Positions 32,188-34,991 of a stretch of DNA of 39,355 nucleotides are shown here, piece after piece. Source of the DNA: Bacillota bacterium (lineage in GTDB: Bacteria; Bacillota; Sulfobacillia; JAJYWN01); assembly GCA_021791495.1 (NCBI GenBank), contig JAJYWN010000005.1, forward strand, positions 1 through 39,355, given 5' to 3'. The position numbers and the translations under genes are program-made. Each line of letters starts with the position of its first letter. Position 1 is the stretch's first letter. The notes under the pieces are model-generated. The model saw only the letters and a list, made by a program, of their open reading frames with translations, ran no database searches and was not told the origin of the DNA.

Positions 32188-34308
32188 TCACCTGCCGGTG
32201 TACTCGATCAGCGCCTTGGACAACGCCGCCGCCACTTTCTCGCGGTACTCCTCGCTGGCCAAAAGCTCAGCCTCCAGGGCGTTGGACAGATACCCCACAC
32301 GCACTGCGGCGCAGGGGCAGTCCGCACCTTCGAAGACCGCCAACGACGCCGGTCGCAGCCCCCGGTTCGGGCGGTTGGTGCCTTGTACGACTTCGCGGTG
32401 GAGCGTCTGCGCCAGTGACAGGCTCCCCTCGTCACCGGCCGGGTGGTTGACCTCGATGCCCGCCACGGTACTCACCGGGTAGTAGTTGGTCCGGACGTTC
32501 ACATAAAGCGACGGGTGGCGTTTGACGCGCATCCCCCGCCGGTGGTCGGACGAAAGGTTGATGTCGCCTTGGCGGGTCAGGTAGACCACCAGACCATGGC
32601 CGCTGAGGACAAGTGCCGCACGATGGACGATGTCCAAGGTGACATCGGCCTGCCGCAGGCCGCTGGCCGCCACGGCCTCCTTGGCGGTGCCCCCGTGCTC
32701 CGGGTCCAGCATTATGTCGACTTTCCCTTCGGGCGCCTTGGGTACCGGCGATGGTTGTTTGACCGGTTCGGGTTCGGTGGCGGGTTCGGGTGTTGGCTCG
32801 GATCCGGGCAGGGGTGTGGGCTCAGGCACGGGTTCGGGCGCCGCTTCTGGCGCAGGCTCGGGCGCGGGTTCGGGTACGCGGACAGGTTCGGGTACTCGTA
32901 CAGGTTCGGGCGCGGGTCCCGGTTCGGGCACAAGCGCGGAGGCGGACTCAGGGAGAGCAGGCTCCGGCGCTGGTTCAAGGGCACATTCAGTAGCAGGCTC
33001 GGTGGCGTTCACTGGCATGGGCCCAGCGGCCGGTTCGGTTGCTGGCTCCTCTGAGAGTGGCTCCGTAGCGGGTGCAAGAGGGAGCTCGACCGGCGCCTCC
33101 ACCGCCGACGGTTCCTCAGCGGCGGGCTCCTCATGGGCCATTTCCTCGATGGCCAGCTCCTTGACTGCGGGTTCCTCGGCCGCAGGTTCCACCTCAGCCG
33201 GTTCCACGTCAGCCGGTTCCACGAGGGCCGGTTCCACGAGGGCCGGTTCCACAGCCGCTGGTTCTGCAAGGGCTGGTACCGCGGCGACTGGCTCGTCGAG
33301 GGTGGGCTCCTGAACAGCAAGTTCCGCAACATCGATGTCAGGCATGGTCGATCCCTCCCCTGAAGCGGACTCATCCGGGGTTTCTACTGTCGGCTGGGCG
33401 GTGGGCCATTCGTCCACAATCAGTGGTCCGCCCGCGGGCCCAGTACCAGCAGGCTCCTCAGTGACAGGCACCTCGACCACAGGCACCTCGGCTACGGACA
33501 CTTCGGCCACAGGCTTCGCAGTTACGGTCTCTTCGGAGGCAGGTTCCTCAATCACAGGCTCTGCGGAGGTGGTTTCAGCAGCGACGGGCTCGACAGAGAC
33601 GGGCTCCTCAACGACGGGCTCCTCAGAGGTGGACCCATCGGCGATGGGCTGCTCGGCGACCGGCTCCTCGGCCACAGGCTCCGTAGTGACGGGCTCTGCG
33701 GAGGCAGGTTCCTCGATCACAGGCTCTGCGGAGGTGGCTTCAGCAGCGACGACCTCGGCAGCGACGGGCTCCTCGACGGCGGGTTCCCCGCAGGTGGTCT
33801 CCACGTCGATGTGTTCGACGCTAGGTTCAACATCGGCCGATTCCGCTGAGACGCGGGCGGCAACAACGGGTTCAGCCGGTATCTCGGGGGCTACCGGTTC
33901 CTCAGCGCAGTACGAACACGGCTCGGCGATCTCGGGCACCTCGGTCGTTTCACCTTGTTCGTCCGGTCCCAGCACGATGGGGTCTGCACTCATGACCCTG
34001 GCGCCCAGAACCTGCACCAGGAAAGCCAGGGGGGCGTAAAGGGTGGCGTCAATCATGGTCGGGGCGACCGGCATTTCCAGCCGGTCGTTCCGGTACCTTA
34101 CATAACGATACTCCGCCAGAAAATCGAGGTTGGTGTCGTCCTTGACCACTGTGAGCAGGCGGCGTTCGGGACGCCAGAACGCCGCCGCTCCAAGGGTGTT
34201 TGCCAGGTCCATAGCGGGTGCCATGACCACTCCCTGGATCATGAAGGTGTCCATCTCCAGGGAGAGTGGCCGACCCCCGGCCAGCAGGATGCGGACGAAG
34301 GTTTTCAC
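32188..34308 (-). CDS. Degenerate Amidase_3 protein with Cu-amine-oxidase-like domain and Glu-Pro repeat stalk
   Basis: About 706 residues from GTG 34308. Residues 1-120 resemble the copper amine oxidase N-terminal-like domain of cell-surface proteins (LAGGRPLSLEMDTFMIQGVV ... RLLTVVKDDTNLDF). Residues ~130-520 are a Glu-Pro-Val/Ala-rich repeat stalk. From ~525 an Amidase_3 (N-acetylmuramoyl-L-alanine amidase) fold is clear, but of the zinc/catalytic positions only the first His (DPEHGG) remains: the Glu of GLxEKD is Gln (GLRQAD), the His of SIHAN is Arg (NVRTN) and the Glu of LVEVGFLSN is Arg (AVRVGYLSN). It probably binds rather than cuts peptidoglycan. No classical signal peptide is seen at this start. 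Confidence 0.8.
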   Translation of the reverse strand: MKTFVRILLAGGRPLSLEMDTFMIQGVVMAPAMDLANTLGAAAFWRPERRLLTVVKDDTNLDFLAEYRYVRYRNDRLEMPVAPTMIDATLYAPLAFLVQVLGARVMSADPIVLGPDEQGETTEVPEIAEPCSYCAEEPVAPEIPAEPVVAARVSAESADVEPSVEHIDVETTCGEPAVEEPVAAEVVAAEATSAEPVIEEPASAEPVTTEPVAEEPVAEQPIADGSTSEEPVVEEPVSVEPVAAETTSAEPVIEEPASEETVTAKPVAEVSVAEVPVVEVPVTEEPAGTGPAGGPLIVDEWPTAQPTVETPDESASGEGSTMPDIDVAELAVQEPTLDEPVAAVPALAEPAAVEPALVEPALVEPADVEPAEVEPAAEEPAVKELAIEEMAHEEPAAEEPSAVEAPVELPLAPATEPLSEEPATEPAAGPMPVNATEPATECALEPAPEPALPESASALVPEPGPAPEPVRVPEPVRVPEPAPEPAPEAAPEPVPEPTPLPGSEPTPEPATEPEPVKQPSPVPKAPEGKVDIMLDPEHGGTAKEAVAASGLRQADVTLDIVHRAALVLSGHGLVVYLTRQGDINLSSDHRRGMRVKRHPSLYVNVRTNYYPVSTVAGIEVNHPAGDEGSLSLAQTLHREVVQGTNRPNRGLRPASLAVFEGADCPCAAVRVGYLSNALEAELLASEEYREKVAAALSKALIEYTGR
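33535..33750 (-). repeat. Direct repeats in the Glu-Pro stalk coding region
   Basis: Two 51-base copies, 33535-33585 and 33700-33750, differ at about two positions and are 165 bases apart, an exact multiple of three. They encode the repeated TSAEPVIEEPAS block. They sit inside a longer array (about 32740-33900) of degenerate units rich in EEPV, AEPV and VEPA. In-frame gain or loss of units is likely between strains. Confidence 0.75.
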
Positions 34309-34374
34309 GGATGGTCGTCCCCTTTCCGACGTTTCTCCAAAAAGATATGAAAGGGAGACCCGGTGAAAGAACAA

Positions 34375-34421
34375 GACGCCCTTTATCGCGGGCGCCTCAG
34401 CCTGTTGGCAAGGAGGTTGCC
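34375..34421 (-). repeat. Hairpin repeat, copy 1 (leader of the pseudo-amidase gene)
   Basis: On the minus strand AGGCGCCC and GGGCGTCT form an 8-bp stem (one G-U) around a GCGATAAA loop, preceded by a second stem, TTGGCAA-CCTCC-TTGCCAA, extending to about 34423. After the main stem comes TTGTTCTTTC, a weak U-rich tail. It lies about 70-115 bases upstream of the pseudo-amidase start, so it may act as a terminator or attenuator. It is about 85% identical to copy 2 at 34947-34991 in the same orientation. Confidence 0.65.
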
Positions 34422-34553
34422 AATCACAAACCATTTCATTTGAACCGTGTCTTCGGCGGCCGAGAAGGTGCGTGTGCAGTCCGTATCCGGGGTGGGGGGG
34501 TATCCGCCGCCATGGGGTCGCGCGGGTCAATTCGGGATACGCTTCCGAGACCA

Positions 34554-34830
34554 ACAGGGTATCTTGGGTTTACCCACGCCCATTGAGCCGGCTTTCACAA
34601 TTGGGCGGTAGGTCTTTCGAGGTGAGGCTCGCGCAGTCTGGCTTTCCTTCGTGCTGCTAGAAGGCGCGAGTCCAAACTCGTGTTCCCAGGCGGCGCGCTA
34701 GTCCGCGGGAAAGTAGGTTCCGATGGGGCGCGGGGAGGGTTCCGGCAGTTTGCGGTCGAGGTCTGAAGGGCTCTCCAATACCCCCCTAGGGTATGGTTCC
34801 GCGGAGGGAGGTAAACCCAAGATACCCTGT
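34554..34830. repeat. 277-base segment bounded by a perfect 21-bp inverted repeat
   Basis: Bases 34554-34574 (starting ACAGGGTATCTTGGGTTTAC) are the exact reverse complement of 34810-34830. The intervening 235 bases encode nothing recognisable. Both ends are flanked by CCA (34551-34553 and 34831-34833), which could be a 3-base target duplication or chance. The form resembles a small non-autonomous element (MITE-like), but a large RNA stem is also possible. Confidence 0.6.
34778..34794. promoter_or_regulatory. CsoR-like palindrome ATACCC-N5-GGGTAT
   Basis: A perfect 6+6 inverted repeat with spacer CCCTA. The pattern TACCC...GGGTA with a G/C tract resembles operators of CsoR/RcnR-type metal-responsive repressors. 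No copper or metal-transport gene adjoins it in this window, and it sits inside the 21-bp inverted-repeat segment, so its role is open. Confidence 0.3.
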
Positions 34831-34946
34831 CCATTCGCCAAAGGTGTCTGGGATTTACTCCACCTGTGGTTGCTACCGCGCCTTGGCGGAGACCACGGGC
34901 GGAATGGCCCTCAGGGGTCAGTTGTCCCTGATTGTCAACAACCTCA

Positions 34947-34991
34947 GGCGCCCCTTATCGTGGGCGCCTCAGCTTGTTGGCAGAGGTTGGC
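34947..34991 (-). repeat. Hairpin repeat, copy 2 (just after the AOR gene)
   Basis: On the minus strand AGGCGCCC pairs perfectly with GGGCGCCT (8 bp) around an ACGATAAG-type loop. The outer CAACAA and TTGTTG (reaching 34936) extend the stem by 6 bp beyond a small internal loop. It begins 10 bases after the AOR stop, so it is well placed as a transcript-end structure, though no U-run follows. Direct repeat of copy 1. Confidence 0.65.

Follow-up and report, generated by a model that had tools for sequence, protein, structure and literature searches.

The gene considered here raises the question of whether a protein with an Amidase_3 domain still hydrolyses the cell wall, and whether it is exported at all. 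Domain annotation alone would label it an active secreted amidase. It lies in a stretch of 39,355 nucleotides from a Bacillota genome (contig JAJYWN010000005.1), which was analysed as a whole and is referred to as the window. An original prediction, made from the DNA letters, described a pseudo-enzyme on a long stalk, and the open reading frame has the coordinates given there and lies on the minus strand.

The reading frame of the gene stays open above the GTG start, as far as a TTG at 34554. The GC content by codon position was 0.77/0.50/0.71 in the gene vs 0.63/0.54/0.57 in the open frame upstream; a coding-like pattern was seen below 34308 only, and the first domain starts a few residues after the GTG. 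This domain matched the Cu_amine_oxidN1 profile (PF07833) with 45.1 bits, above the curated cut-off of 24.2, as expected from the Cu-amine-oxidase-like domain proposed earlier. Its AlphaFold2 model shows two beta halves from the start codon onwards (pLDDT 85.7, pTM 0.77). In an alignment with proteins of the same genome, the hallmark Arg of the VPLR motif was gone from both halves, which read MAPAM and YAPLAF. The acidic proline stalk, previously put at about 390 residues, measured 405 and contains 86 Glu, 81 Pro and 71 Ala, with a net charge of -88 and a pI of 4.05. At the DNA level it consists of imperfect tandem units of 12-30 nt. A Pfam match to Extensin was caused by the stalk, fell under its cut-off and was rejected. 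The Amidase_3 profile (PF01520, cut-off 27) matched with 96.1 bits over profile positions 1-173 of 174, in agreement with the good alignment along the full domain that had been seen by eye.

Features of the gene in the window (positions on the forward strand; the minus sign marks the reverse strand).
Feature	Position	Strand	Details
Pseudo-amidase gene	32188..34308	-	GTG start at 34308, stop at 32188; 706 codons, 706 aa
Cu_amine_oxidN1 domain	33994..34275	-	residues 12-105; Pfam E 1.1e-11; complete from the start codon
Glu/Pro/Ala/Val stalk	32734..33948	-	residues 121-525, 405 aa; from composition
Amidase_3 domain	32206..32715	-	residues 532-701; Pfam E 3.2e-27
His538, sole kept zinc-ligand position (PEHGG)	32695..32697	-	alignments
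Gln553, replacing zinc-ligand Glu (LRQADV)	32650..32652	-	Glu in 83/84 homologues; CwlD mapping
Arg606, replacing zinc-ligand His (NVRTN)	32491..32493	-	His in 84/84 homologues; CwlD mapping
Arg670, replacing catalytic Glu (AVRVGY)	32299..32301	-	Glu in 83/84 homologues; CwlD mapping

Amidase_3 domains were gathered from the window's genome, order, class and phylum, and 84 homologues from its class and a phylum sample were used for comparison. An active N-acetylmuramoyl-L-alanine amidase has His/Glu/His as zinc ligands and a catalytic Glu; the four columns were occupied by these residues in 82, 83, 84 and 83 of the homologues, respectively. In the window domain the set is incomplete, as H538 alone is kept. 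The claim that three of the four metal or catalytic positions are changed (Glu to Gln, His to Arg and Glu to Arg) and that only DPEHGG keeps its His was thereby confirmed, and in an alignment with Clostridioides difficile CwlD (7rag) Q553, R606 and R670 stood opposite Glu65, His133 and Glu199 (numbering from PMC8496864). Single mutations of His49, Glu65 or Glu199 abolish the function of CwlD (PMC8496864). The exceptions among the 84 homologues were L113 and L119, which are interrupted there by an in-frame stop, and L123, in which both Glu are missing; all non-stop departures from H/E/H/E were found in this last protein, which is signal-less.

The window domain departs from conserved columns also at G537E, G544E, K554A and S604N. 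Altogether 26 columns were conserved in at least 85% of the homologues and seven of them differ in the window domain, namely 6/10 at most two residues from a catalytic position vs 1/16 farther away (hypergeometric p 0.005; the test is in part circular, since it includes the three catalytic substitutions from which the finding started). When these three were excluded, 3/7 near columns differed vs 1/16 far ones. Far from the active site, 15/16 of the strongly conserved columns show the usual residue. Judging from these substitutions, catalysis has very likely been lost. The original prediction had pointed to orthologues sharing the substitutions as a check, and none with exactly the same ones was found by protein patterns in the genome's contigs, in the order, in 154 class genomes or in a 398-genome phylum sample; only the best-scoring loci were read at residue level in this search, and other degenerate homologues may be missed.

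The AlphaFold2 model of the Amidase_3 domain, built with 50 sequences, reached a pLDDT of 96.0 and a pTM of 0.92. Foldseek gave TM values of 0.91-0.94 to 5emi, 1jwq and 4rn7. The model superposed on CwlV (1jwq) with a Z of 28.7 and an rmsd of 1.4 Å over 176 residues, and Z was 27-29 for C. difficile 4rn7, AmiC2 and CwlD. The Amidase_3 fold is predicted to be intact despite the lost residues.

A different kind of active-site change was observed in seven other amidases (L128, L129, L130, L131, L132, L165 and L202), in which the codon of the first catalytic His is followed immediately by an in-frame stop, TAG in six and TAA in one. They come from the genomes G445, G422, G273, G466 and G328, from the MAG AS02xzSISU_21 and from Paenibacillus sp. 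FSL H7-0326. Their motif, DPGH-stop-X-GG, amounts to a 6-nt insertion vs DPGHGG, and downstream of the stop the sequences share 32-94% identity and are otherwise intact. Pyrrolysine was considered and rejected, as no PylS over the cut-off was detected in G445, G422, G273, G466 and G328. Our guess is readthrough, or a bypass of the stop and one codon that would restore DPGHGG. A narrow full-text search found no paper on amidases with a stop beside the catalytic His.

Export was judged by hydropathy rather than by a trained predictor. By this test there was no signal peptide or transmembrane segment ahead of the first domain, either in the gene or in the open frame above it: the best 16-residue Kyte-Doolittle mean was 1.1, in a stretch that contains His and Arg. 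Proteins of the same genome with an N-terminal Cu_amine_oxidN1 domain reached a mean of about 2 or more, apart from a few that were not judgeable; L236 may also be signal-less. In genome G000 we counted 31 Cu_amine_oxidN1 matches in 4.2 Mb, several of them clustered on contigs C54, C55 and C74.

Signal-less proteins with the same two domains were found in another family of the phylum (L122, L123 and L263, from G177, G343 and G257, all of one order). They share about 60% mutual identity and their genes follow the same order, dnaD-dnaB-yabE type-ksgA-DUF458-amidase. The catalytic set is intact (H/E/H/E) in L122; L123 has lost both Glu (H/G/H/S), and in L263 the first His is missing along with part of the loop behind it. 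The whole-gene dN among the three was 0.33-0.41 with dS saturated, and we concluded that the degenerate relatives are kept by selection. The genome that encodes L123 is 81% complete and its ksgA and dnaB frames look broken, therefore L123 may hold sequence errors. The window domain joins these three proteins in the tree with a support of 85/79, which is under the usual bar, and its branch is the longest of all (1.77 vs a median of 0.51). The N-terminal domain of the window protein is no closer to them than to exported proteins of its own genome. The window protein likely, though not securely, belongs to this signal-less group, on a long branch and with a support of 85/79. It resembles its members in the order of the two domains and in the missing signal peptide, and differs from them in that they are about 300 aa long, have no acidic stalk and lie in a different gene neighbourhood. 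L123 and L263 have lost catalytic residues too, but other ones than the window protein. Taken together, these findings point to a lineage that is not exported and has repeatedly given up catalysis.

Two other placements were rejected. A grouping of the window domain with L014 and L018 (79/63), obtained in a first tree without the G177/G343/G257 group, was not kept by the second tree. Synteny with L051 and L053, which are of the same order, signal-less and intact, was dismissed because selA/selB and a CAP gene lie beside them and not beside the window gene. Signal-less Amidase_3 proteins of the window's order with an intact active site were also seen in L095 (8750-10024) and L096 (8856-10091); they begin with a short beta-like segment, end in a conserved Pro-rich stretch (DTGMPPMP), and adjoin selA, selB and a CAP-domain gene.

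The neighbouring genes in the window encode a response regulator, FemAB, alanine racemase, aldehyde ferredoxin oxidoreductase and an amidohydrolase. FemAB and alanine racemase act in peptidoglycan precursor synthesis; an oppositely oriented gene separates both from the gene studied here. The neighbours do not settle its function. Upstream of it nothing over chance was found among the RNA elements of Rfam, and no sigma-70-like promoter was found on its strand. A MITE-like element with perfect 21-nt inverted-repeat ends occupies 34554-34830, and with 34540-34845 as query about 20 other long copies were detected in the genome (67-82% identity), plus short end fragments. It is flanked by a hairpin-forming 37-nt direct repeat (34374-34410 and 34946-34982, 89% identical), the 26-base core of which occurs nowhere else in the genome.

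That the window protein is an Amidase_3 pseudoenzyme is well supported. That it is, more specifically, a non-exported and catalytically dead one acting by binding is a reading to which we give about an even chance. A role in intracellular binding or regulation is probable because three of four residues are lost, no export signal is present and relatives of the same layout lost residues too. Such a protein would hydrolyse nothing and would reside in the cytoplasm or in a sporulation compartment. In its former active-site groove a zinc ligand and the catalytic Glu have both become arginine; the groove may bind an anionic peptidoglycan precursor, a stem peptide or a partner protein, and the acidic stalk would space the two domains.

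The original prediction placed the protein on the surface or at the wall. Most Cu_amine_oxidN1 and Amidase_3 proteins of the class are indeed exported, and an exported amidase with a Pro-rich stalk (L002) exists in the window genome; as Cu_amine_oxidN1 starts at the start codon, neither the gene nor the open frame above it encodes a signal peptide or transmembrane segment and the relatives are signal-less as well, we regard a stalked surface or wall-binding protein as very unlikely. Still slighter is the chance of a hydrolase that remains active with a shifted metal site. His538 is kept, and M. tuberculosis CwlM is reported, in work cited in PMC4946905, to be active in vitro despite a degenerate site, but in the window protein the catalytic Glu and two zinc ligands have given way to other residues, in two cases to Arg. 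A sporulation protein, signal-less in the mother cell or forespore, binding cortex-side peptidoglycan via the dead amidase fold and anchoring or spacing a spore layer by its stalk, is the least improbable of these alternatives, though we consider it unlikely. Such a role is possible since Spo0A is present in the window genome. The best NCBIfam score of the amidase domain was to the spore model CwlD (equivalog TIGR02883), a test that failed with 79.2 bits, far under the cut-off of 221.55; the signal-less L051 and L053 adjoin a CAP protein, and the CAP protein in G001 matches the spore YkwD model, likewise under cut-off. On the other hand, no recognisable spore gene adjoins the window gene and no sporulation promoter was identified by a scoring directed at sigma-70-like sites.

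A gene in decay, which lost export and then the active site, appears somewhat less probable than a sporulation protein. The branch is the longest in the tree, a repetitive element and the 37-nt duplication lie just upstream, and the hallmark Arg residues of the N-terminal domain are lost as well. However, the 706 codons are without lesion, though at least 12 nucleotide changes are required to produce the seven departures from conserved columns, the conserved columns away from the site are nearly all unchanged and purifying selection acts on the relatives that lost residues. A neutral simulation at 0.1 hits per site still left about 39% of the domains stop-free, so a recent decay retains some probability. 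As the window protein has no close orthologue, the case for selection on it draws on distant relatives and on its own unbroken frame. What stands of the earlier view is the conserved scaffold and a selection for something other than hydrolysis, which the far columns, the fold model and the relatives indicate; its surface or wall-binding part is not supported.

Beyond the single protein, we tentatively propose, as a possibility less likely than not, a non-exported Cu_amine_oxidN1-Amidase_3 lineage outside Actinobacteria, of non-CwlM architecture, in which wall hydrolysis was repeatedly abandoned and the proteins took on binding or regulation inside the cell as part of peptidoglycan metabolism, with the window protein as a stalk-bearing member. 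If true, this would add a second case, independent of the first, in which a peptidoglycan amidase became an intracellular non-enzyme, and would suggest that new peptidoglycan regulators can arise repeatably when export is lost first and the zinc site afterwards.

Among known systems, the catalytic domains of CwlV, AmiC2 and CwlD (1jwq, 5emi, 7rag) have the same fold over the full domain, but keep the zinc and catalytic residues. Exported amidases of the class, e.g. L001 of the window genome, have the same two domains in the same order and differ by a signal peptide, an intact active site and the lack of a 405-residue acidic stalk. Another parallel is CwlM (Rv3915) of mycobacteria, an amidase homologue without a secretion signal, in which the zinc His is degenerate to Arg and which activates MurA, its role being regulatory rather than enzymatic (PMC4946905); its actinobacterial homologues are all signal-less, with active sites intact or degenerate (PMC4946905). 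The window protein, signal-less by hydropathy, shares the His to Arg change, and by the same principle, a cytoplasmic amidase homologue regulating peptidoglycan synthesis, it may have a parallel role. CwlM keeps the acidic residues of the zinc site, whereas the window protein loses acidic ones and keeps the first His. CwlM has two peptidoglycan-binding domains and a phosphorylated tail, whereas Pfam shows in the window protein Cu_amine_oxidN1 and Amidase_3, joined by the stalk, and no such pair. The window protein resembles CwlM and is no member of the CwlM family.
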